Below are positions 8,896 through 37,085 of a DNA stretch of 64,000 bases, in pieces. The notes below the pieces were generated by a model. It was not told the origin of the DNA. It saw nothing but the letters and a program-made list of their open reading frames with translations, and did not search any database. Numbering within the stretch: the stretch's first letter is position 1; each line of letters opens with the position of its first letter. The position numbers and the translations under genes are program-made. Source of the DNA: Hydrogenovibrio kuenenii DSM 12350 (GTDB taxonomy: Bacteria; Pseudomonadota; Gammaproteobacteria; Thiomicrospirales; Thiomicrospiraceae); NCBI RefSeq assembly GCF_000526715.1, contig NZ_JAGP01000001.1:1922001-1986000 (forward strand), given 5' to 3'.

Positions 8896-10347
8896 ATGCG
8901 ACATTTTTGGCTTGTTTTTGTCATAGTACCCCTTACTCTTTCGGGTTGCTCTACCATTGAAACACGCAGTTTCCCCAAACAAATCTTTCCGAAACAATGG
9001 GCACAGCAAGTTCAACAGCTTCAAACCCAAAGACAGACTCATCCCTGGTGGCAGGAACTTCATGATGCAGACCTCAATCAGTTAATTACAGAAGCAATCA
9101 AAGCCAACCCTGATGCGCTGACCGCTGAATCCGTTATTCGTGAATCACGAGCTTATCGCGTTCAAGCCAAAGCCGGGCTTTTGCCTAAAGCCACTATTGG
9201 CGCTAATGCCAAAAGTACTTACCTCAAAAGTACTGATGCCACGACCGACATCTATTCCGCCGTACTTGACGCCAGCTGGGAACCAGATATTTTCGGCAGC
9301 CAGCAACATACTCTCGCTGCGGCAAACGCTCAAGTAAAAGCTTCTGAGGCTAGTTATGCTGATGTATTGGTTACTTTAAGTGCCGAGGTGGCGACGAACT
9401 ATATCACCCTTCGTGGCTATCAAGCTCAATTGAACGTGACCCAAGACTCTTTAAAAAGTTGGAAAGAAACCCTACAACTGACTCAATGGCAACACCAAGC
9501 CGGCATGGTCACCGAACTGGATGTAGAACAAGCTAAGCGTAGCTATGAACAAACCGCCGCGTCCGTTCCAACCTTGAAACAAAGTATTCTAGAAACCCAA
9601 AACCAGCTGGCAATTTTACTTGGACGACCACCAGAATCCTTACCCGTTAGTTTAACTAAAACAGCCGCTTTACCTGACTCACCTAAAACGGTCTTTTTGC
9701 CAATTCCGACTGAAGTATTAAGACAAAGACCGGACGTTAGAGCTGCCGAACAAAAAGTGCTGGTCGCCATGTCGAAAACCGATGCCGCCAAAGCAAATCG
9801 TTGGCCTTCTTTTTCCTTAGGTGGAACACTCGGATTTACTTCGGCAAGCATTGGTAAACTAATAAACAGCGATTCTCTGTTTACCACACTCACAGCAGGC
9901 ATTACCCACACACTCTTTGATGGTGGTGCCTTAGATGCTCAGGTTGACGTGCAAAAAGAACAGGAAAAACAAGCCCTCTATAGCTACAAAAAAACCGTAT
10001 TGAGTGCGTTACAGGAAACTGAAAATGCGCTTGCTGGCCTTTACAACAGTAGAGAAAGCTATGCTGCGCTAAACCGTGCACTTGAAGCTTCAAAAAACGA
10101 AGAAAAACTTGCTGTTATGCAATATGAATCTGGGCAAACAAATTTCTCAAATGTCTTAGATGCACAAAGAACACAACTGACACTCAAACAAAAAAGCATT
10201 GAAGCCAAGGCAACCGAATTGGCAAAACTGATTACGCTCTCCAAAGCCATTGCAGGCAATTGGGCAATTAAACAAGCCAAAAAGAATGGCACTATCGATG
10301 AAAAACCATCGACTCAGTCGAAACCTATAAATGGAACATCATCATGA
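8896..10347 (+). CDS. TolC/NodT-family outer-membrane efflux lipoprotein
   Basis: A 483-residue outer-membrane channel of the RND-type efflux lipoprotein (NodT) family. The signal peptide ends in the lipobox LSGC (Cys about residue 18), so the mature protein should be lipid-anchored. Two OEP repeats (about 60-260 and 265-455) show the expected alanine- and glutamine-rich helices and motifs such as VATNYITLRGYQAQL and LRQRPDVRAAEQ. GGAGA precedes the ATG. It is the first gene of a four-gene efflux operon; its last codons overlap the next gene (ATGA). The neighbouring palindrome suggests repressor control. Confidence 0.88.
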   Translation: MRHFWLVFVIVPLTLSGCSTIETRSFPKQIFPKQWAQQVQQLQTQRQTHPWWQELHDADLNQLITEAIKANPDALTAESVIRESRAYRVQAKAGLLPKATIGANAKSTYLKSTDATTDIYSAVLDASWEPDIFGSQQHTLAAANAQVKASEASYADVLVTLSAEVATNYITLRGYQAQLNVTQDSLKSWKETLQLTQWQHQAGMVTELDVEQAKRSYEQTAASVPTLKQSILETQNQLAILLGRPPESLPVSLTKTAALPDSPKTVFLPIPTEVLRQRPDVRAAEQKVLVAMSKTDAAKANRWPSFSLGGTLGFTSASIGKLINSDSLFTTLTAGITHTLFDGGALDAQVDVQKEQEKQALYSYKKTVLSALQETENALAGLYNSRESYAALNRALEASKNEEKLAVMQYESGQTNFSNVLDAQRTQLTLKQKSIEAKATELAKLITLSKAIAGNWAIKQAKKNGTIDEKPSTQSKPINGTSS

Positions 10348-22774: not shown

Positions 22775-25546
22775 TTGCTACCTAAGATCATGCGTTCGCG
22801 CCTTGCGAACAAAATCTATATGCCTATTTTGTTGACGATTTTTATCGGTCTTCTGGTGGTTATCATCAACTCGTTTTACAGCCTTTCCAATATTACTGAC
22901 CTCAAATATCAAGAAATCCGTAAAACCTATCAAAACTATCTTAAAAGAGCTTATGAGAGCAAAGCTTCTGTTGCCTTAACCAATGCTATCACCTTGTCAC
23001 AAAACCCTATCATCATCAACGCCCTGAAGACTGGTCAACGTGATGGTGCACTGCAGCTCCTTCGAAACATTTCGAACAATATGGGCGACTACTCCTCATT
23101 TAAGAATGTCAGGATTCATATTCATACGGCGGATTTAAAAAGCTTCATTCGCAGCTGGCGACCTAAAGATTATGGCGATGACCTCAGTGGTTTCAGAGAC
23201 TCTCTCGTCTATGAGAAACAAAACCAAAAACCTTTTGTTGTTAGCGAAATCGGACGCGCAGGCCTTTTATTACGTGGAATTGCTCCAATTATAGATCACG
23301 GTAAATACTTAGGTTCTATTGAAGTTGCAACAGGGTATGAAGATATCGGCCACCTTCTCCAACAAGACTATGGTCTGGATTTTATCGTGTTAGCAGCCCC
23401 GTCTCGCAGCAAAAGTTTTCAACGTTTTCACCACTCAAAAGCGATTGGCGACCGTTATTTGGCAATGGATGAAGCATTAGTAGAGCCTGAATTACTTAAG
23501 GCTCTAAAAGGATTTCAATCCATTGATATCCGTAAAACAGGCATGATGATAAGAAACAACCTGTTTATGACGTCTATCCCTATTAAAAATCTCGACAACG
23601 ATGTCGCTGGTTGTCTCATGGTTGCAGACAAAATGTCTCATATCAGCGCTATCGTTAATCAAACACGCCGTTCAATGATTTTTCAGATTGGTTTCATTGC
23701 ATTTATCGATCTGCTCATACTGTTATCTTTAACATGGATGATTAAACGTAATGTCTTAACACCTGTGATGAACCTGTCCCAAGATGTTCGTAATTTTTCA
23801 AGGAATATTGGTAAAAAGCTACCTTCAACGACATCAAATGACAGCTTATTATTGCGCCGCGATGAACTAGGAGGAATTGCTCGCGCCTTTAACAAATCTG
23901 CCAAACACATTTCCTTTTTATTCGAAAAAGTTGAAGAATCACAAAAAGTACAAGAAGAATATCTCAAAGCTGTTTATGCGGGCAGCATTGTCTCCAAGGC
24001 TGACCGTAAGGGCAATATCACTTTTGTTAACGACGAACTCTGTAAAGTTACAGGATACCAACCAGAAGAACTACTTGGACAACCCCACAGCATTTTAAAG
24101 CACTCTTCCACACCAACAGAAACGTTTTCTGAACTCTGGCGAACCATTACCAAAGGTCATATTTGGCATGGTTTACTCATAAACCAGAAAAAAGATGGCG
24201 GGGTATTTTATGCCAATACCACAATTGTCCCCATCTTGACGAGTGAAAGTACTATCAGCGAATACATTGCACTTAGGAATGATGTCACAGAACTAATCAA
24301 CAGCCAGCGGCAACTACGTGAGTCCTTATTTAAAGACGCCTTAACTGGGTTAGATAACCGCTTTAAACTGCTTGAAGATATCAAAGAAAGTGATCCGCAT
24401 TATATGGCTATTTTTGATATCCGTGCTTTCAAAGAGCTCAACGATTTTTATGGTTATGAAATTGGCGACAAGGTGTTGGTTTATATTGCGCACTATCTTC
24501 TCAATAACATCAAAGATAGCTTATGTAATGTATACAGACTTCAAGGCGACGAATTTGCTTTGGTCGGCACTGGAAAAAACGCTTATAGTTTTGAACAATT
24601 TATCGAACGCATTCAGGCTATGCTCTATAGCGTCACCAATCAAGTCATGCTGATTGATGATTACAGAATCACATTAGACTTAACCATTGGTATCACCCAA
24701 AAACATAATGACCTACTCTTTGAAGCTGATTTAGCACATAAAATTGCCAAAAAGCGTAATAAAGCCCAAGTGATTTATGACGAAGATTACAAACAAGAGC
24801 AAGTGCAACAAAACAATATCGAGTGGGTTAAAAAGCTAAAATCCGCCATTCACGACCACCGAATAAAGGCGCTTTACCAACCCATTATCAACAATCATAA
24901 TCAAAAGATAGAAAAGCATGAAGCACTGATACGTTTAGAAGCTTCTAGCGGCGAATTAATCAGCCCATTCTACTTTCTCAATATTGCTAAAAGAGCTCGC
25001 CTATACCCAGCACTGACACATATCATGATCCAAAAGGTCTTTGATACATTACATCAGTATGCCGGTGAATTCAGCATCAACCTCAGCATGGAAGATATTA
25101 ACACGCCAGAAATTCATGACTTTTTGATTGAAACTCTTAAAAACAATCCAAAACTTGGTGAACGCCTGGTATTGGAAATTGTTGAATCAGAAAGTATCGA
25201 AAGCTTTGATATAGTCGAAACCTTTATCAGTAATATGCGTACTTATGGTTGTAAAGTTGCGGTTGACGATTTTGGAACAGGTTACTCCAACTTTGAATTT
25301 TTACTAAACCTACACCCTGATTACATCAAAATCGATGGCAGCTTAATTAAAAACTTACCACAAGACCATAAAGCTTATGCGTTAGTAGAAAGTATCGTTA
25401 TCTTTGCTCAGAAAAACGATATCAAAACCATTGCGGAGTTTGTGCACTCCGAAGAGGTTTATCAAACCGTCAAAGAATTGGGAATAGATTATTCTCAAGG
25501 ATTCCTTCTAGGGCAGCCGGAAGTAGAGCCAAAACAAAGTCTATAA
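22775..25546 (+). CDS. Membrane Cache-HAMP-PAS-GGDEF-EAL protein, probable c-di-GMP phosphodiesterase
   Basis: A 923-residue inner-membrane sensor. A membrane helix (about 13-36) and a second (about 300-325) bracket a periplasmic double-Cache-like domain; then come HAMP (about 325-385), PAS (about 395-505), GGDEF (about 515-665) and EAL (about 690-920). The GGDEF motif is changed to QGDEF, so cyclase activity is doubtful. The EAL domain keeps EALIRL, SINLSMED, EIVESE, DDFGTGYS, YIKID and the late Glu and Gln (AEFVHSEE, SQGFLLGQP), so it should hydrolyse c-di-GMP. The start is TTG at 22775, with AGAGGA upstream. The sensor domain resembles that of the chemoreceptor at 34 kb. Confidence 0.88.
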   Translation: MLPKIMRSRLANKIYMPILLTIFIGLLVVIINSFYSLSNITDLKYQEIRKTYQNYLKRAYESKASVALTNAITLSQNPIIINALKTGQRDGALQLLRNISNNMGDYSSFKNVRIHIHTADLKSFIRSWRPKDYGDDLSGFRDSLVYEKQNQKPFVVSEIGRAGLLLRGIAPIIDHGKYLGSIEVATGYEDIGHLLQQDYGLDFIVLAAPSRSKSFQRFHHSKAIGDRYLAMDEALVEPELLKALKGFQSIDIRKTGMMIRNNLFMTSIPIKNLDNDVAGCLMVADKMSHISAIVNQTRRSMIFQIGFIAFIDLLILLSLTWMIKRNVLTPVMNLSQDVRNFSRNIGKKLPSTTSNDSLLLRRDELGGIARAFNKSAKHISFLFEKVEESQKVQEEYLKAVYAGSIVSKADRKGNITFVNDELCKVTGYQPEELLGQPHSILKHSSTPTETFSELWRTITKGHIWHGLLINQKKDGGVFYANTTIVPILTSESTISEYIALRNDVTELINSQRQLRESLFKDALTGLDNRFKLLEDIKESDPHYMAIFDIRAFKELNDFYGYEIGDKVLVYIAHYLLNNIKDSLCNVYRLQGDEFALVGTGKNAYSFEQFIERIQAMLYSVTNQVMLIDDYRITLDLTIGITQKHNDLLFEADLAHKIAKKRNKAQVIYDEDYKQEQVQQNNIEWVKKLKSAIHDHRIKALYQPIINNHNQKIEKHEALIRLEASSGELISPFYFLNIAKRARLYPALTHIMIQKVFDTLHQYAGEFSINLSMEDINTPEIHDFLIETLKNNPKLGERLVLEIVESESIESFDIVETFISNMRTYGCKVAVDDFGTGYSNFEFLLNLHPDYIKIDGSLIKNLPQDHKAYALVESIVIFAQKNDIKTIAEFVHSEEVYQTVKELGIDYSQGFLLGQPEVEPKQSL

Positions 25547-25562
25547 AAATTTGAACAGTAAG

Positions 25563-25639
25563 TGGCGCGCCCAAGAAGATTCGAACTCCCGGCCTTTCCC
25601 TCCGGAGGGGAACGCTCTATCCAGCTGAGCTATGGGCGC
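25563..25639 (-). tRNA. tRNA-Arg, anticodon CCG
   Basis: The reverse strand folds as a 77-nt tRNA with encoded CCA: acceptor stem GCGCCCA/TGGGCGC, D-arm GCTCAGCTGGATAGAGC, anticodon stem TTCCC/GGGAA with loop CTCCGGA (anticodon CCG, codon CGG), and T-arm with GTTCGAAT. All stems pair, with two G-U pairs in the T stem. No integrase or duplicated 3' end suggests an attachment site here. Confidence 0.95.
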
Positions 25640-27478: not shown

Positions 27479-30400
27479 CTATAGACTGACTCGGCGTACC
27501 CAAGGCTTTAAGCCTGTTAACTTGGCAATGCCTTTGGAGGCTTTGATTGCTTGCAACCGTGTTTCATAACCACCAACAAGAACAGAATAGACATGCTTTC
27601 CACTTACTTCTTTTTGCTTAACAACCGCATCCTTAAGATCGTATTTATTGATAAAATCCTGAGCTTTTTGGCGTGAACCCGTTGTTAAAAGTTGTATCGT
27701 AAAGTTTTTTGGGGTTACTTGAGGCTGATCTTTTTTAGCAGAAACCTTCTCTACGGTTGGTTGTGTTTCAGTTGAATCATTAGTAGCAGCAGGACGTACA
27801 GCATCCGTCAAAACACGACAGTACAGACTAGAGCGCGCTAGGTTCTCACATAGATATTTTGGACGATTAATATCGTCAAATGGCCCCAGTATTAACTGAT
27901 AAGTTTCATCCGCATTTTTAGATAAAAGCATTTGATATGGACGTGAATTATTCAACCCGCCTAATACTGATGGGAAAACACTTCTTAAAGCTTGCAGTGC
28001 AGTTCTTGCATTTTTCTCGGATGAGAAATGCCCTAAGTCAACTGCATACCCGGTATTATCGGTAGGTTTGTCTTTAGAATAACTATAAATCTCTTTTGGA
28101 TAAAGTCTAAAGTGCGCACCAACAATCAACGTTCCCTTAGCACCTATAACAATTGGCATATCATCTCGGGATTTTAAACCATTTTTGGCCAAAAACTTTT
28201 TATCCACATTCAGTGTATAGTTACCGGGAGGAATGGTGTCGATTGAAAAGTAGCCATCATAAGCTGAAACAGCTTTGAATTCTTTTTTAGTCTTTGTACT
28301 CGTTAAAACCATAGGAACTTGCCCTAAAGGCTCAGGGAACGAAGAAAGTTGTTTAACAATAGTCGTTGTTCCTTCAACCTCACCTGAGGTAACTACTGGT
28401 ATCAGCACAGTTTTTACCATACCTGGACGCGGTAAAAATGACACTCCATCTTTTGTCGGAATCCAGAATGGATCTGGAAGAGAACTTGGTTCAAGCTTCA
28501 AATCCGTTACCATATTCGGATAGAGGCCGCTAATCAAAGCCACACCTTGAGCATCTGTTTTATCTTCGCGATGCGTTTGCGGACTGATAAACGTCGCATT
28601 TTTTATCGGCTTTTCACCAGGATCATATCGGTGATTATTATTCGCGTCTTCAAATACAAAAGCAGCAGCTGCACCACGAGTACTTGCACTTTGAGACGTC
28701 ATAAACAGACTGTTGTCGACCGGATTCTTACCTAAACCAAAACGGATTGAAAAATAAGCGCTGTTAAATCCATCCTGATCGCCTTGAAACTGTAAACTGG
28801 AAATAAAGTGACGTGTGTGCCAGTTAAGAGACAATTGACCATAATCATATTCAGTTTGAAAATCTCGGTTCAATGTCAGATCTGTATTAAAAGAATTAGT
28901 GAAATATTTTTGGACTGAGAAATACCCTCTCTTCGCTTTATTTTCGGGCTTTATATCGTAAGTCATCCCTGTTCGCCAAAACGTGTCATAAAAATAAGTC
29001 GATGCTTGAAAGTTACCATCCGCCGTTTTTACATTTTTATTCTGAGGAGACTGACTGATCAAATAGTTAATATTATTTGACAAACTGACTCGCCAAAGCT
29101 TTAACCCGAGACCCAGACCATATCTATCTACCTCAGTGTTATTGAACTGATAAATTTTCTGATAATTCAACCCATAATTCAACCCAGTAAGTCTAGTACG
29201 AAAAATGGGGCCACTCAAAGATACACTATGATTTTCTTCTATACTTGCAGTTTCTAAAGCAGTTCGTCTGAAATCACTACTTCCGGCCTGATACAGATAA
29301 CTAAACTGTTGATTAAAAAATTTACGAGATAGGCCAAAAGATCCTAAATATCCACCATTAACATCTTTTAGCCACTGAGCATGTAATAAAGTATCCAACA
29401 AAAATAAACGGATACCAGGCTGGATAAATTGATGTCGTTGTTTTTCTTCCAAGAAAGAGTAGCTACTAGCATCAAAAGTGAAAGATGCATTCAACCCCAA
29501 ACCTTTTTCAGCATGCATATTAATACGAGCTTCATCTTGTTTCAGATTGCTCTTAGCATCCACTACATAATTTTGCAAAAGCGTATTTTGCTGAGAAACA
29601 GAAAGATCATAAATCCACTTCCCTCCTACCAGAGAAGCTGGATCCAAATCGTAAGTTTGCGTTTTTTCTTCTCTTTGACCTTGAGGCCCATAAAACAACA
29701 ACTTAAACTCGTTTTTACCGACACTCAAAGACTGATCAAAAAACTGATATTGTCCATTGTCTGACACTTGTGTGGTCGATAAATATATGCCATTTCTGTA
29801 TAGTTCAACTTGCCAACCAGGTTGCTGAAACCCAACAATATTAACTGTTTGTGTATTGGTAACATGACCATAGGGTCTATTTGATACTCGAACCCCTACC
29901 TCATTAGTAGCTGACAAGTTGCTAATTTGTGTTGGTACTAGATCACCTACCTCCACCTGCGTTGCTTTCATTGGTCCTAATAAGTCATTATCAAGAGAAT
30001 ATCTTTCCAAACCAAGTCTGAAGTTAGTCACCTGACTCGGCTTCAAGCTTGAGTTGTAACTGGTGCCTACAAAATATCGTCCAGTCATATACGCCAAGTC
30101 TCCCGCACCCAACAATGACAACTGACCAGTATTCTGATCAAGTTTATTATGTGTTCCTGACAATTGAATATCAGCAAATACAGGACCGATTAATTGATAA
30201 GGTATATCTTGACGAGCGTATTTGGGAGCAAGATTACCCACTACAGAATCAGACACTTTGTTTTTAAGCCTAGCGTCTACTTGAATAGGCAATGGCTCAG
30301 AAGATTTTAAGGTGAGAGATAAACGCAAAAGGTTCATATCAGATTTGATATCAAACCAATTTAATGTTGGTGAAACTTTTACCCATAGTTGTTCGTTATG

Positions 30401-30838
30401 AACCCAAACATCTTTTTCTGTCAGATTAAACTCATGACCTTTGGCATTAACTTGCCAAGTATTATCTTTTAAATTTTGAATTGAAAAATGATGGTCTGGC
30501 CGGATAAACCAGCCGGAAGCTTTGATTTCAGATATTTTTCCACCTGAAATTTTGGTCGTTAAATCGATAGGAAAATTCAAAACAGTGATGAGTTGTTTTA
30601 AAGACGTCCAAACCCCATCATTCTTTTTAATTACATTTAATTGACCAAGCTGTAACTTTCCAACCTTAACATCAACTAAAAATGCATCACTAGTATTAGA
30701 AACTAGCTGATTGCCTCGAACATATTTACCTGAGACAGGGTCGTAATAAAGTGGGGCTTCTGCTGCATGAGCGCTTAATATGCTAAAACTGCTCAGCATA
30801 ACTATGAACAGCACACCTCGCTTAAGAAGTAGCATCAT
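27479..30838 (-). CDS. Fimbrial usher-like outer-membrane protein with two C-terminal SPOR domains
   Basis: A 1119-residue secreted protein (signal peptide about 1-25). Residues about 26-230 form an N-terminal soluble region; a long beta-strand-rich region (about 230-720) has the features of alternative chaperone-usher ushers, including VEVGDLVPTQIS and QVELYRNGIYLSTTQV. Next come carboxypeptidase-regulatory-like domains (about 724-929), starting with a calcium-loop-like DANNNHRYDPGE. Two SPOR domains follow (about 930-1012 and 1045-1119). SPOR domains bind denuded peptidoglycan at division sites, and their presence on an usher is unusual. Its ATG overlaps the stop of the chaperone gene by four bases, so the two are translationally linked. 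The chaperone neighbour supports an usher role; the exact clade is uncertain. Confidence 0.75.
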   Translation of the reverse strand: MMLLLKRGVLFIVMLSSFSILSAHAAEAPLYYDPVSGKYVRGNQLVSNTSDAFLVDVKVGKLQLGQLNVIKKNDGVWTSLKQLITVLNFPIDLTTKISGGKISEIKASGWFIRPDHHFSIQNLKDNTWQVNAKGHEFNLTEKDVWVHNEQLWVKVSPTLNWFDIKSDMNLLRLSLTLKSSEPLPIQVDARLKNKVSDSVVGNLAPKYARQDIPYQLIGPVFADIQLSGTHNKLDQNTGQLSLLGAGDLAYMTGRYFVGTSYNSSLKPSQVTNFRLGLERYSLDNDLLGPMKATQVEVGDLVPTQISNLSATNEVGVRVSNRPYGHVTNTQTVNIVGFQQPGWQVELYRNGIYLSTTQVSDNGQYQFFDQSLSVGKNEFKLLFYGPQGQREEKTQTYDLDPASLVGGKWIYDLSVSQQNTLLQNYVVDAKSNLKQDEARINMHAEKGLGLNASFTFDASSYSFLEEKQRHQFIQPGIRLFLLDTLLHAQWLKDVNGGYLGSFGLSRKFFNQQFSYLYQAGSSDFRRTALETASIEENHSVSLSGPIFRTRLTGLNYGLNYQKIYQFNNTEVDRYGLGLGLKLWRVSLSNNINYLISQSPQNKNVKTADGNFQASTYFYDTFWRTGMTYDIKPENKAKRGYFSVQKYFTNSFNTDLTLNRDFQTEYDYGQLSLNWHTRHFISSLQFQGDQDGFNSAYFSIRFGLGKNPVDNSLFMTSQSASTRGAAAAFVFEDANNNHRYDPGEKPIKNATFISPQTHREDKTDAQGVALISGLYPNMVTDLKLEPSSLPDPFWIPTKDGVSFLPRPGMVKTVLIPVVTSGEVEGTTTIVKQLSSFPEPLGQVPMVLTSTKTKKEFKAVSAYDGYFSIDTIPPGNYTLNVDKKFLAKNGLKSRDDMPIVIGAKGTLIVGAHFRLYPKEIYSYSKDKPTDNTGYAVDLGHFSSEKNARTALQALRSVFPSVLGGLNNSRPYQMLLSKNADETYQLILGPFDDINRPKYLCENLARSSLYCRVLTDAVRPAATNDSTETQPTVEKVSAKKDQPQVTPKNFTIQLLTTGSRQKAQDFINKYDLKDAVVKQKEVSGKHVYSVLVGGYETRLQAIKASKGIAKLTGLKPWVRRVSL

Positions 30839-31650
30839 TTGTAAACAAAAGATTTTTTAACAAATACTTGATTATTAAAAGCTTTTCCACCTTTATAAAC
30901 CAACTTATAATACCCTTTTTTAAGGGTAGGCATTTCCAGATTCACCCGGTTATTTTTTAGAAAAGTGTTCTCTCGATAGATAGCAACATTATTGAAAAAA
31001 CCAACGTTTCGATAATTACCGCTATCAAGTGATCGCCAATAGACATCAACTCGTCCATTGACGCCAAATTCACCACTTCTTTTAAGGTCAAATTGAATTT
31101 GTGGCTTTCCATTCGATGATAATTTGTTTGGAACAAATATCACGTGCTCCATATCGACCTTCGCTTTAAAATCAGTAGCTCTCACAAAAATCGGGATCGA
31201 AAACGACATTAGTATATGTAACTGAATCTTTGCATCGTTTTGCTTTGTAATAAGATTCGGCGGAGGCAACTCCGTAAACAGCATATGAGTCCTGTACTCT
31301 CCTGAACTTAAACCTGCAGGTCGTCGAACTCCGATGCGAATTTTTTGTGCCTGGCCGGGCGCCAAAGTCATTTGACGGGGACTGAATCGAATCATTCTTT
31401 TTGCAGAATTTAACTGTTGCAACTGCTTTTTATTTGGCTTAACGATAAGACCGCCGCCATATTTTTGCAGCATATTGATCAAGTCTATCCGATAGGTTTT
31501 GGTTTGATTGGAATCATTAACAACATTAACCACCTCTGCACGATCTCTAGGCTCAAAGATCACTCTTTTAGGTGTAATCATTAAACTGGCCTGAGCGACT
31601 TGTACCCAAATCATTAGTACAAAAAATCCAGTAAACCAAAGCTTCAACAT
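30835..31650 (-). CDS. Periplasmic fimbrial chaperone (PapD-like fold)
   Basis: A 271-residue periplasmic protein with a signal peptide (MLKLWFTGFFVLMIWVQVAQA, cleavage about residue 21). The N-terminal immunoglobulin-like domain (LMITPKRVIFEPRDRAEVVNVVN) and the MTLAPGQAQKIRIGVRRPAG strand resemble chaperones that donate a strand to pilin subunits; the C-terminal half is a divergent second domain. AGGAG lies five bases before the ATG. Placed between the pilin-like DUF4402 gene and the usher, which is the expected position for chaperoning the subunits. Divergent from the classical FimC/PapD group. Confidence 0.78.
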   Translation of the reverse strand: MLKLWFTGFFVLMIWVQVAQASLMITPKRVIFEPRDRAEVVNVVNDSNQTKTYRIDLINMLQKYGGGLIVKPNKKQLQQLNSAKRMIRFSPRQMTLAPGQAQKIRIGVRRPAGLSSGEYRTHMLFTELPPPNLITKQNDAKIQLHILMSFSIPIFVRATDFKAKVDMEHVIFVPNKLSSNGKPQIQFDLKRSGEFGVNGRVDVYWRSLDSGNYRNVGFFNNVAIYRENTFLKNNRVNLEMPTLKKGYYKLVYKGGKAFNNQVFVKKSFVYK

Positions 31651-31719
31651 TTTTACTCCTAATTAAAACCTGTTAAGGTTGCTTGAGCTGATTTTATAAG
31701 AAAATTCAATAAAGACAAA

Positions 31720-32238
31720 TTAATTGTAATTAAAGACAATCTGATAATTTCGGAAATAAGTGCCATCCAAATAAGCAAGACCAGTGCCACTTGTTTTCAA
31801 CCGACCAAAAACACGCAGTTCATAACTACCATTAGCATCGGTATTAAAAGTTTCAGTTTCTAAGGAAGGAAATATATCAAATTCTGTTGCTGTAGCAGAG
31901 CCTGATTGAAAGGTTGTTTGTGATGGAGCTGGCTGAATAGAAGCCGTTATTTGATAGTTAGCGGGAAAACCGTTTAATGCAAAAATACCAGGATTACCTG
32001 CTTGTAAAATAACAAAAGCGTTATCTGCAATAACACCATTATTAGGATCAAGAGCTAAAGTATAGACTGCATCATTTTTGGTAATAACGATTTTACCAAA
32101 CCATAAATGCTGAGTTTCGATAATTGTTTCTGCCGCAAAACTTGGTCTTGGACAGCTAAAAGAAAAGATTAATCCAATCATCTGCAAAAAAAGCGTTGCG
32201 GAGATGATTTTTTTAGATGGCTTGATTGTTAAGCGCAT
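31720..32238 (-). CDS. DUF4402-like secreted subunit of the chaperone-usher cluster
   Basis: A 172-residue protein with a long signal peptide (about 1-35, ending SFAAE). The mature part is beta-rich and glycine/threonine-rich, and ends in YFRNYQIVFNYN, a pattern like the C-terminal strand of pilin-type subunits. It resembles DUF4402 proteins but more weakly than the gene upstream. A minor or tip subunit is a reasonable inference. The ribosome site is weak. It lies 111 bases behind the first DUF4402 gene and 69 before the chaperone gene. Confidence 0.6.
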   Translation of the reverse strand: MRLTIKPSKKIISATLFLQMIGLIFSFSCPRPSFAAETIIETQHLWFGKIVITKNDAVYTLALDPNNGVIADNAFVILQAGNPGIFALNGFPANYQITASIQPAPSQTTFQSGSATATEFDIFPSLETETFNTDANGSYELRVFGRLKTSGTGLAYLDGTYFRNYQIVFNYN

Positions 32239-32349
32239 AGGTAGGGTAAATTCCCGTATTTTAAACTATTCAATAATAGAAAATCACCTATGCTAACAAA
32301 ATTTGTAAGGAGTGTATACAGCACACCCCCCACAAAGCAACAACCAAAA

Positions 32350-32988
32350 TTATTGGTAATTTGCTACAACAGTAAAAGTACCTGAGTAAGTACCATCTGA
32401 TGCCGGACCTGCTGTTGCACTATCATCTGCTGTGTTAGGAATAGTGATAGTTGCACCCATATTGAACTCTAACGCACCGGTAGCATCAGTTTGCAATGCA
32501 CCTGAAACACCACTGGTGAAAGAACCAAAAGAACTATTCGTTACATCATAGATAGTTGGTGTCCCGATTTTCAAAGGGTCTGCTGACGGATTTGAACCGT
32601 TCGTCAAAGTTAACAATCCACCGGCTTCTCCCAGATTGGTAGTAACCAAAATATTGGAATTAGCGCCCGCACCAGCAATAGTAAACTTGGCAGGTGTTCC
32701 CTGTGTCAAAATAGTGATCTTAGAAGCTGTACCATCCGTCTTGGTGGAAGGTGCTGCGGCACCCTCTAATGGGCTTAGAGCAAGAGTGGCACTATCCGAC
32801 GCAGTAGCCGAAATAGTGGCTACAATCGAACCAAAGTTCATGTCTGCAGATTTGGTTAGCGTAATAGCGCCATTAACTGCGACTGATGCTGTTGCATTAA
32901 TAGGGGTATTGGCAGCTTGTGCGGTAGACACACCTAACGCAGCCAAAAGCCCTAATGCGAGTTTTACTTTCTTATAAGAATGTTTCAT
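32350..32988 (-). CDS. DUF4402 domain protein, probable major pilin-like subunit
   Basis: A 212-residue secreted protein of the DUF4402 family. The signal peptide is MKHSYKKVKLALGLLAALG...AQAA (about 1-25). The mature part is Ala/Thr/Gly-rich with NGAITLTKSADMNFGSIV near the start and YSGTFTVVANYQ at the end, like subunits assembled by strand exchange. ATG at 32988 has GAGGAG six bases upstream, the strongest ribosome site of the cluster, which fits a highly made major subunit. Co-directional with chaperone and usher. Confidence 0.75.
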   Translation of the reverse strand: MKHSYKKVKLALGLLAALGVSTAQAANTPINATASVAVNGAITLTKSADMNFGSIVATISATASDSATLALSPLEGAAAPSTKTDGTASKITILTQGTPAKFTIAGAGANSNILVTTNLGEAGGLLTLTNGSNPSADPLKIGTPTIYDVTNSSFGSFTSGVSGALQTDATGALEFNMGATITIPNTADDSATAGPASDGTYSGTFTVVANYQ

Positions 32989-33322
32989 AACATACTCCTC
33001 AAGTTGATAGATATGGGTTGCCCCAACTAGCTTTATCGACAAAACTTTAACTAACTTTAACAGTTTTTACCAATAAACTTTCTTAAACTCATTTTTATTT
33101 AGATTTATAATTTTTCTCAATCAAAATAAAGAGTTAATTCTTTCACTGACCATTAGTTCAATAACGTTATTCAAACCTTTTGACAGCATGATTAATCGCC
33201 ACTCACATTCTTATAAAAGCAATTGTAATGGTTCATTAAATCCCGTAAATGCAACTTCGCTTGATTCCAATCCATAGTATTTCATTTGTCTTTTTCAGGC
33301 AAACTCAAACATCAAAACATAT
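32989..33322. other. 334-base intergenic region before the DUF4402 gene
   Basis: AT-rich, no reading frame supported. It must contain the promoter of the DUF4402-chaperone-usher genes, since the next upstream gene ends at its far side. No convincing promoter or operator could be picked out. Confidence 0.4.
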
Positions 33323-33859
33323 TTAAGGTGTAGGAGGCTGTAAATCATCGGATACGTGCTTCAATCCTTTTAAGTAATGCAACAGTTCATTAACTTCAGA
33401 ATCTTTCTTAGCCATAGCAAGCAACTTGGGCTCTAGTGTCTTCCACTGTTTTAAAATAGCTAACACCCTTGGAGAGTCTTCTCCGGTATTAGATACTTGA
33501 TTAATAAAACCTTGTGTACGGCGAATCAGCATCTCATTTGGCGTCAACGACGATACTCCACCACTCATTAACTGATTAGGCGACATAGCTCTAACTTGCC
33601 GAGAAGCAAACATCTCAGAAGGCGTAGAGGTTCTAAATAAAGCATCTGGCGAAGACGCATATTTTTCTTTGAGTGTTGTAACAGAATAACTATGCTTTAC
33701 TTCAGCTTTAACCGGCAATACGTAAAAAACACTAAATACACAAATAAGGTTAAAACAATTCAGATACTTTAATCCACTCTTCAATACTGCCAAAGCGCTG
33801 TTAAAAGCCATTTGATTTCTGAATGTTGTTGGCTCCTGCCAATCGATTTTGCCATCCAT
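33323..33859 (-). CDS. Secreted protein of unknown function with repeated [ST]-P motifs
   Basis: I do not recognise this 178-residue protein. A hydrophobic stretch at about 34-50 (CFNLICVFSVFYVLPVKA) looks like a signal peptide with an unusually long N-terminal region; a start at residue 17 (33811) would shorten it. The mature part has four related hexamers, SPDALF, TPSEMF, SPNQLM and TPNEML (residues about 70-111), followed by a helical C-terminus with two Leu-rich segments. It is co-directional with the usher cluster, 334 bases upstream of the pilin-like gene, so a link is possible but not shown. Confidence 0.6.
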   Translation of the reverse strand: MDGKIDWQEPTTFRNQMAFNSALAVLKSGLKYLNCFNLICVFSVFYVLPVKAEVKHSYSVTTLKEKYASSPDALFRTSTPSEMFASRQVRAMSPNQLMSGGVSSLTPNEMLIRRTQGFINQVSNTGEDSPRVLAILKQWKTLEPKLLAMAKKDSEVNELLHYLKGLKHVSDDLQPPTP

Positions 33860-34184
33860 ATTACTGCTCTCGATTTAAATTAAAAATTGTCGCCGAAGGC
33901 AAAGCAGGCATTATGCCAATATAAACTTTTATACTCGACACTTCCGTTATTTGGCCTCAAAAAGGCTCATTCACTTAATTTCAACGAGTGTAACTTACAA
34001 CCTGACAGAAATAACTCAAGCCTATGATAAAACACTATCCACTCATCTAAACCATTGCTCACCATATATAAAAATGTAATGGGAATACGACTTTTACAAG
34101 CTTGACATAGCTAGTTAAACGCCCCATTATTTCTTCATACTATTCGGAATAGAATAATAAACTTACATAACAGAGGTGTTCATA
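33860..34184. other. 325-base divergent region before the chemoreceptor gene
   Basis: No gene seen. It contains a good promoter for the chemoreceptor (34102-34130, separate entry) and a short palindrome CTATTC-G-GAATAG just downstream of it. Confidence 0.5.
34102..34130 (+). promoter_or_regulatory. Sigma-70-type promoter of the chemoreceptor gene
   Basis: A perfect -35 TTGACA (34102-34107) is followed after exactly 17 bases by CATTAT (34125-34130). This gives a leader of about 50 bases before the GTG start at 34185. It is the best sigma-70 match noticed in the window. Confidence 0.65.
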
Positions 34185-37085
34185 GTGAGTGAGGGCAGCC
34201 AAAATTTTCGCTTGGTTCTGCGTGTGGATGCAGATGGCAACATTACTGAAATTAATCAGGACTACTTAGAATGGACAGGTTATAGCAAGACAGAGGTTAT
34301 AGGCCAACATATTTCTTTCCTACGAAAGCCATACCCTAAAAGCCTGACCGAAGATATGGCAAAAACACTTCGTTCCGGCAAGCCTTATTACTTTTATGCG
34401 CATGAAATCAAGAAGTCCGGTGAAGATTATTGGACAGAAATGAGCTGTTTGCCTTTTATTGAAAATGGTGAATATCAAGGCTACACAACCATCAAACGCA
34501 TACTTGATAGCGAGGCCATTCCCAAAATACAAAAGACCTACCGCGATCTAGAGAAAGGCATACGACTGATTAAAGAAGGTCAGTTAATCAAAACCTGGAG
34601 CTTCCGCATTCTCCGATCGGTAGGGTTATATCATTTTGAAGCTAAAAATCTAATGATATTATTTGCACTAATCTTTGCCGTGGCGAGCGCTTCATTTCTT
34701 TATATCAATGAGTTAAATGAAAAGCACAAAGTAAAAAATCAAACACTGGCTAACTACAACAAAAAAACACGCATCACCATACACAACCTATTTGTCAGTA
34801 AGAAAAATGTTGGTGAGTCTATTATTACTGGCTTAATGATCAACCCTGATGTTCGTAAAGCCATTGTCAAAAAAGATTTACCGATGCTAACGCATTATTT
34901 CAATGCGCTAAAACCCTTCTATGCTAAACATACAACTTTTAAAAACATCAGAATTGATATTACCGATGCAAATGGCGTTTCTTTTTACCGCTCTTGGCAT
35001 GGGTATGACCAGCATGAAATCAGCGAGAATAATCGTGCTTATATCGTTGAACAAATAAAAAAACCAAAAATTAAAACCGTATTTGAGCTTGGCGAGCACG
35101 GTATAGGCTTCCGCACATTAATCCCTGTATTTGATAATGGAGGGCAATATCGTGCCTCGGTTGAGCTTATTCAAGGAACGGGCTCGGTTAGACGCCAACT
35201 GCTAAAAGATCGCTTACTATTCACTCCTATTCTAAATAAAGAATTTGTTGCAACTCTAGGTGGGACGATTGGGGGCAATATCAATAACCGTCCTGTTGGC
35301 AATGACGGACACTATGTCGTCGGGCATAAGGGGCGCTCTTCTCGCTCTGAAAGCCTGCAAGTCAAAGTATTGAAAGACATGCCTATTTCAGAGTTAATTA
35401 AGCGACAAACTTGGTTATATAATGGCTATATACATACCGCCATCCCAATTCAGAATGATGCAGGGAAAATCATCGGTTACTCAATCGTTTCTGAAGATGC
35501 GCAGACAATGCACAACGAACTTGAAGGCTTGTATGCGCCAATCGACAAAGGATTTTACATTGCTCTAGGCATGCTTGCTATTGCGATTATTGCCTTTATT
35601 AGCTTTGTTGTTTTCTTTATTATTCTACCGCTCAGAAAATCTAAAGACGCCATTCATGAAGCGGTAAAAGACTCAAACCTTTTCTTAAGACTGGATTCAT
35701 ACGGCAATAATGAAGTCGCACAAATGGGCGCGGCTTATAACCAACAAGCGATGCTGACTCAATTTGCTATTTCCGAGACATCCATGTCGTTAAGAGAAAT
35801 TGAAGAAGGTCATTTGGATCGCCAAATTGACTACCCTTTCCAATCCGATTTCGGGCTTCTGAAAGATTCCGTGAATAACACCACACAAGGGTTAAACAAT
35901 ACTTTCGCCCAAATAGCCCAAGTTATGAACGACCTAAAAAATGGTGAGTTTGACCACGAACACCAAAACAACCTTAAGGGGGCTTACTACCAAGTTGTCG
36001 ACGACTGCTTAAGTACAATGTCTACTCTTTCTGAAGTGTTTGCCGAAATCACTCGTGTAATGGAAATGGCGAAACGTGGCAACTTTAACGAATCCGTTTC
36101 TGTATCAGCACATGGCGACATTGAAAAACTAGCACAAACAATTAATGATTCCATGTCAAGGCTGGATGCTGGTTTTGAAGATATTGTTAAAGCTGCACAA
36201 CGTATTGCTGCTGGCGACTTTACGCATCCAATCACCAATAATTATGAGTTTGCTATTGATGAAGCCAAGCAGGCAATTAACCAATCTATCGAAGATTTGC
36301 GCATGACCATGGCAAACATTACTAATATTGCGCAATCTGTTTCCTCTTCAGTTTCTTCAGTTGCTTCTGGCACTGAATCCTTAAATGAACGTACACAGGA
36401 ACAAGCCGCTTCACTAGAAGAAACTTCTGCGGCCATGGAGCAAACAGCCTCTCAAGTTCATCACAACATGGAATCAACCCGAGAAGCGGCAACAATTGCC
36501 AATCAACAGGTTAGCGCTTTACATAGTGCCAACGCAGTCATGTCGGAAACCCAAACTGCCATGGCAGATATTAAAACGGCATCCGAGCAAATCCAAAACA
36601 TCACGAGTCTAATTGACAGCATTTCCTTTCAAACCAACTTATTGGCTTTAAATGCTGCTGTTGAAGCGGCAAGAGCTGGTGAACATGGACGTGGTTTTGC
36701 TGTGGTAGCGGGCGAAGTAAGAAGCCTTGCAGCTAAATCTGCAGATGCCGCAAAAGAAATCAGTCAACTTATTGAAAAAACGGCTATCGCTATTGATAGC
36801 GGTGTCGGCAAAGTAGACTCGGTTAACCAGCAACTGGAACAAATTACCGAAAAAACTGAAGAGTTGCAAAAAGTGGTCAATGACATATCCCAATCATCTT
36901 CAGAACAGGCCAAAGGTATTACCGAAGTAAACAATGCCATTTCAAGCATTGATAACATTACGCAACAAAACGCTGCACTGGTAGAAGAAACCTTCTCAAC
37001 CGTCGAACAAGTTCAGCAAGCATCGGACGACCTTATTGAAAGCATGAAAAAATTCAATATAGGCAATACCAAGTCACTCAACTAG
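34185..37085 (+). CDS. PAS-Cache methyl-accepting chemotaxis protein
   Basis: A 966-residue chemoreceptor. An N-terminal cytoplasmic PAS domain (about 8-108; Aer-like, with [14 protein letters not shown]) precedes a membrane helix (about 155-173), a periplasmic double-Cache-like domain (about 175-440), a second helix (about 458-485), HAMP-type segments (about 485-700) and an MCP signalling domain (about 715-960) with the hairpin tip [20 protein letters not shown]. There is no C-terminal CheR-tethering pentapeptide. GTG at 34185 is preferred, with AGAGG eight bases upstream. It can thus combine an internal (PAS) and an external (Cache) signal. No che genes are nearby. Confidence 0.9.

Follow-up and report, generated by a model that had tools for sequence, protein, structure and literature searches.

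We propose that the usher of a chaperone-usher operon in Hydrogenovibrio kuenenii DSM 12350 carries a built-in cell-wall attachment module, formed by two SPOR domains of which the first (SPOR1) would be a docking or structural domain and the second (SPOR2) would bind glycan, a reading to which we give a probability of about 0.6. The operon lies in a stretch of 64,000 nucleotides (positions 1,922,001-1,986,000 of contig 1, in a genome of 2.45 Mb) that was analysed as a whole and is called the window here, its own coordinates being used throughout. A first-pass annotation of the window had described a cluster at 27479-33042 made up of an usher, a chaperone and two subunits; all four genes stand on the minus strand at these coordinates in the list of open reading frames, but a fifth gene at 33323-33859, also on the minus strand and outside that range, had been missed, and the locus is a complete chaperone-usher operon of five genes. 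Comparison of the usher with its relatives suggests that fibre machines of this little-known class have a connection to the cell wall of a kind that has not been described in ushers.

Recognition of the 1119-residue usher (27479-30838) depends on its predicted structure. The usher family PF00577 gives no match to it up to E 10 and, in the same genome, picks another gene; TcfC-type models, which had been named in the first-pass annotation as a family to look for, are likewise missing from its Pfam matches up to E 10. The genome holds a second, classical usher outside the window, without SPOR (G000:C1:1360450-1361874, PF00577, open frame of 769 residues). A search of PDB with the window usher alone returned no match and a profile of it found mostly immunoglobulin-like or sandwich repeats, so that a comparison of structures was needed. 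The AlphaFold2 model, built on an alignment of 75 relatives, has a mean predicted local distance difference test score (pLDDT) of 86.7, and its best PDB matches in Foldseek are all FimD or PapC (E 1.5e-30). VIA-align superposes 545 residues on FimD with a Z of 20.2, model residues 209-911 corresponding to FimD 131-833, clearly above the Z of 14 reached by unrelated barrels. The model shows an N-terminal domain, a plugged beta-barrel (barrel and plug at residues about 217-714, 28697-30190, delimited by DSSP and by alignment to the FimD/PapC translocation domains), two C-terminal domains (residues about 722-911, 28106-28675) and then the two SPOR domains, and by this architecture the protein is a true usher. 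The usher barrel that had been predicted from sequence is thus present in the model, whereas the 'carboxypeptidase-like' domains reported with it are not a separate element: the CarboxypepD_reg and SdrD_B matches to this stretch are sub-threshold in Pfam, and as residues 722-911 align with the C-terminal domains of FimD they represent the ordinary C-terminal pair of an usher.

Both SPOR domains begin just past the FimD-equivalent C-terminus, beyond the normal end of an usher. They had been placed at about residues 930-1012 and 1045-1119, and the calls hold up: PF05036 matches two stretches of the whole protein (E 1e-15, 58.2 bits), the separate scores in a search of the genome are 27.9 bits for SPOR1 and 40.3 bits for SPOR2 against a curated cut-off of 21, and the model delimits the domains at 930-1013 (27800-28051) and 1046-1116 (about 1045-1116, 27491-27706), each with the beta-alpha-beta-beta-alpha-beta order of SPOR and SPOR1 with one extra helix. 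In RlpA, FtsN and DamX a single Gln of the first strand touches the glycan (PMC6895207). A profile of SPOR2 matches the SPOR structure of DamX (2lfv) with an E of 2.2e-11 and aligns to it over the whole domain, with equivalents of both Gln351 and Trp416, the glycan-contact Gln lying within the sequence FTIQLL. SPOR1 has a Cys pair that is invariant among relatives, and in the window it has Asp where the Gln would be expected. By these residues only SPOR2, of the two, appears to resemble a canonical DamX-type binder. A recent duplication as the origin of the pair was considered and not adopted; SPOR1 matches SPOR2-type profiles only weakly (37% in hhalign), and the tails of Alteromonadales ushers do the same (36%).

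Relatives of the usher were collected with an alignment of eight usher cores, which succeeded where a single-sequence protein query of the genome contigs had given no match; it yielded 305 candidate loci from GTDB genomes, and the 80 best of these were retained; under class-level sampling the family was found in 12 of 370 genomes. Many of these relatives have C-terminal tails, and over the roughly 80 that were surveyed the fusion of usher and SPOR is systematic. Pfam recognises SPOR on ushers of Desulfobacterales (three copies), a deltaproteobacterium (two copies), Vibrio, Pseudomonas tumuqii, Marinobacter denitrificans, Desulfuromonadaceae and others. The tails of Pseudoalteromonas and Alphaproteobacteria are missed by Pfam, yet homology is evident between the two groups (hhalign 97.5%, E 7.5e-12) and with SPOR1 of the window (95.8%, E 7.6e-9). 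A hidden Markov model (HMM) made from SPOR1-type tails extends to SPOR domains on lipoproteins encoded nearby, and Pfam itself detects several of these. A tree of 81 usher cores gathers the 37 SPOR1-tailed ushers within one alpha/gammaproteobacterial clade of 39, whose remaining two members (L042 and L048, Ectothiorhodospiraceae-like) have lost the tail. Separate SPOR tails occur elsewhere in the tree, in a Desulfobacterota clade, on a Desulfuromonadaceae usher and in Marinobacter/Pseudomonas. The usher of Thiomicrospira sp. UBA5634 stops after SPOR1 and has no SPOR2; as judged from these tails, the window's family acquired SPOR2 in an additional step. The separate positions of the tails in the tree, taken with this acquisition, indicate a minimum of four to five separate fusions of SPOR to ushers of the family.

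The same collection holds other variations on the usher ends. The usher of a Nitrospinaceae locus (L069, 6584-9973) has a ShlB-type POTRA domain in its tail (9476-9970; POTRA_2, E 1.4e-16) in place of SPOR, and those of L088, L094, L110 and L120 (Krumholzibacteriota and related) have C-termini made up of a proline-rich linker and a short, conserved VRTLHLIYELL..S.LF-like motif. Ushers of four Desulfobacterota loci (L045, L057, L063 and L071) have a conserved N-terminal extension with no evident signal peptide in the open reading frame as called; the idea that this extension is a fused partner helix was rejected for want of any similarity. The Pseudoalteromonas plasmid pPBSW1 encodes an usher-like protein of more distant relationship (L034, 4158-7346), with the annotation SdrD B-like, that likewise has a SPOR domain (E 6.9e-7).

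SPOR1 ushers are also accompanied by partner proteins. In Alteromonadales loci between one and three distinct SPOR proteins are encoded next to the usher and most of them have a lipobox, and the N-terminal part of the partners contains a helix motif, roughly EWxxxKPxIxRLxxxExDLxLLIxQL. Proteins with this motif are mostly lipoproteins, which carry SPOR or, in Alphaproteobacteria, AMIN; the motif model finds an alphaproteobacterial neighbour lipoprotein that ends in AMIN, and AMIN (PF11741, cut-off 20.5) reaches 29.7 bits in L119 and 22.5 bits in L046. The partner SPORs retain the glycan-contacting Gln in 24 of 33 rows of the residue alignment, whose rows include duplicates of the same locus, and the only two rows with Gln among ushers both come from L128, which has a different type of tail. 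Among 37 SPOR1 loci with sufficient flank the helix motif is present at 33, as against none of 30 tail-less loci. The four SPOR1 loci that lack it are the window, L039 and L080, all Thiomicrospiraceae in which the fifth-gene family is present, and L059, which lies on a short contig. The fifth gene of the window encodes a secreted helical protein of 178 residues with a W-x5-P-type helix motif; its family stands beside the cluster in all five Thiomicrospiraceae loci found with phmmer and is reached by the motif model through L036 (E 2e-5; hhalign 73%). The Fisher value for co-occurrence of motif and tail (4e-13) assumes independent loci and these loci are not independent, as they share one SPOR1 clade; we therefore place the weight on the separate gains of SPOR and on a joint loss. 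That loss is seen in the two tail-less members of the clade, where no convincing partner was found on both flanks of L048 or on the one flank of L042, so that tail and partner were apparently lost together. Nine classical usher loci, a small control, have neither SPOR tail nor partner.

A model for wall attachment can be built on these observations. The C-terminal domains of FimD face the periplasm, and SPOR domains placed after them should therefore face the wall. SPOR1, which would be ancestral in its usher class, would have a structural role or serve for docking, perhaps of the helical partner, and DamX-type SPOR2 would bind glycan strands stripped of their peptides. In relatives this role would fall to SPOR or AMIN on a lipoprotein partner, or to several SPOR domains in a row on the usher; in the family of the window, where the partner is devoid of a wall domain, it is the usher that has gained SPOR2. 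Once bound to the wall the platform would resist pulling forces, and it would also come to lie where denuded glycan is made, mainly at the septum and the young poles, much as the AMIN domains position the PilQ secretin; anchoring and placement could act singly or together. Taken more broadly, the loci may represent an undescribed and widespread chaperone-usher class with interchangeable wall readers, in which SPOR1 docks a SPOR or AMIN partner and some lineages fuse SPOR2 to the usher, a generalisation that in our estimate falls just short of even odds. If true, it would be the chaperone-usher counterpart of the AMIN-guided placement of type IV pili, and the first mechanism known to determine where on the cell an usher sits.

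Several observations weigh against such attachment. The glycan-contacting Gln is found in no SPOR1-type usher tail that was aligned, and because it is missing at least one of the two SPOR domains may not bind the wall; SPOR2, for its part, has Thr at the position of DamX S354. The window's fifth gene has no wall-binding domain and is not itself significant with the motif model, being linked to the other partners through its L036 relative. Among the alphaproteobacterial partners scanned, AMIN exceeds its cut-off only in the two named above and is weaker in the rest, with matches below the cut-off in L056, L082 and L111, a very weak AMIN-like match in L068 and no match in a Pfam scan of L076. 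Many ushers of the same wider family, moreover, have no SPOR at all and presumably function without one. The tie to peptidoglycan suggested in the first-pass annotation is on balance plausible, with comparative support from the repeated independent gains, from SPOR or AMIN on a linked partner and from the joint loss of tail and partner; it is the contribution of SPOR1 to such binding that has become doubtful.

These same observations bear on the other ways in which the SPOR tails could be explained. The missing Gln, the long evolutionary retention of SPOR1 with its invariant Cys pair and its co-occurrence with a helical partner would all fit SPOR folds that serve as protein-protein modules, their fold being ribonucleoprotein (RNP)-like, which gate the usher or dock the partner or chaperone-subunit complexes and bind no glycan. 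We consider this unlikely, as it leaves unexplained the DamX-type residues of SPOR2, the Gln kept by most partner SPORs and the exchange of SPOR for AMIN on the partners. It is far less probable still that the tails are incidental and have no function in pilus assembly: SPOR is indeed missing from many ushers of the wider family and from the nine classical loci, but chance attachment is hard to square with a domain gained independently four to five times or more within a single usher family, with the deep conservation of SPOR1 and with a tail and partner that are present and lost jointly. A stronger contender, though one whose chances we put somewhat below even, is that SPOR acts chiefly as a signal of where and when: it would bring the usher to the site of division, fibres would emerge at the septum or new poles, and anchoring would be secondary. 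SPOR2 is closest to a septal protein, DamX, and denuded glycan, the target of SPOR domains, is enriched at septa (PMC6895207). A strong precedent by analogy comes from another type of pilus: in Pseudomonas the type IVa pilus machine is brought to future division sites, and in Myxococcus to nascent poles, by recruitment that requires the AMIN domains of PilQ (PMC5285504, PMC10653833). Yet AMIN and SPOR are both general wall binders, and the repeated occurrence of long-linker lipoprotein partners fits anchoring equally well. A wall-attachment module with distinct parts for SPOR1 and SPOR2 remains the reading that we prefer.

The remaining genes of the operon are those expected of a fibre system. 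The periplasmic chaperone (271 residues, 30835-31650) overlaps the start of the usher gene by 4 bases and is found at the same place in all relatives; it had been called divergent, but it is PapD-like and passes PapD_N with 26.4 bits against a cut-off of 23. Of the two subunits described earlier as DUF4402-like, subunit 1 (212 residues from its likely start, 32350-32988, within an open reading frame that runs to 33042) comes near to that family (PF14352; full-length, E 1.2e-4, 23.1 bits, just under the cut-off of 25.2), while subunit 2 (172 residues, 31720-32238) matches no family and is nevertheless homologous to subunit 1 (hhalign 95.5%, E 1.3e-8). The AlphaFold2 model of subunit 1 has an unstructured N-terminal stretch followed from residue 43 by an incomplete immunoglobulin-like core, its best PDB matches are the pilins FimG (Z 8.8) and CsuA/B (Z 8.7), and by this model it is probably the major pilin with an N-terminal extension. 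In subunit 2 the aligned region starts only about 9 residues past the predicted signal cleavage, which leaves no such extension; a subunit of this kind would accept a strand and not donate one, as fits a tip, and subunit 2, with homologues in nearly all SPOR1 loci, is probably the tip subunit. A terminator-like hairpin of 15 pairs, found by a pattern scan at 32302-32336 on the minus strand, separates subunit 1 from the rest of the operon and has counterparts at the equivalent place in L036, L038, L039 and L047. It is probably a partial terminator that raises the level of subunit 1, and its position between the two subunits is the one expected if subunit 1 is made in excess. An NCBIfam scan gave no useful name for any gene of the operon.

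The distribution of the cluster is patchy, with 5 of 63 genomes of the family having it and none of 11 other genomes of the genus, where the matches were to stand-alone SPOR proteins only. A tRNA-Arg (CCG) lies about 2 kb from it, at 25563-25639, and its neighbours are a GGDEF/EAL-type protein (22775-25546) on one side and a chemoreceptor-like protein (34176-37085) on the other, both named from their sequences.

What appears to be new here, as far as can be read from the genes, is a chaperone-usher system with a wall-attachment module that was repeatedly rebuilt from different wall-binding domains. A literature search that did not cover most subscription papers found no link between ushers and SPOR beyond chance co-mention and no paper describing DUF4402 pili, and the description of a poorly known chaperone-usher system with a two-SPOR usher proved right. 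As every SPOR protein known so far has its function in division or morphogenesis (PMC6895207), a pilus usher that bears SPOR widens both fields. Close relatives with SPOR, with AMIN on the partner and with neither would allow anchoring and positioning on peptidoglycan to be tested by the swap or deletion of one domain.

To our knowledge ushers are usually seen as free-standing outer-membrane pores, and we know of none with a link to the cell wall, nor did the literature searched point to one. The window usher resembles FimD and PapC of type 1 and P pili in its plugged barrel and its N-terminal and two C-terminal domains (Z about 20), but it has no similarity to PF00577 by HMM and has two SPOR domains beyond the end of FimD; likewise the operon shares with the classical pathway a PapD-like chaperone and immunoglobulin-like pilins with an N-terminal extension, but differs in its DUF4402-like subunits and helical fifth gene. 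Archaic Csu and CupE systems are similar in having few subunits, and subunit 1 is as near to CsuA/B as to FimG, whereas the usher belongs to a different sequence family and no SPOR or AMIN module is mentioned for Csu or CupE in the sources searched. DamX, a septal protein of E. coli, aligns with SPOR2 over the whole domain; it is not an outer-membrane pore and its role is in division. PilQ is, like the usher, an outer-membrane fibre pore, and its wall-binding domains direct it to sites of division (PMC5285504, PMC10653833), but pore and pilus are unrelated, and where the AMIN domains of PilQ sit on the secretin itself, the present system has its domains divided between the usher, with SPOR, and the partner, with SPOR or AMIN.

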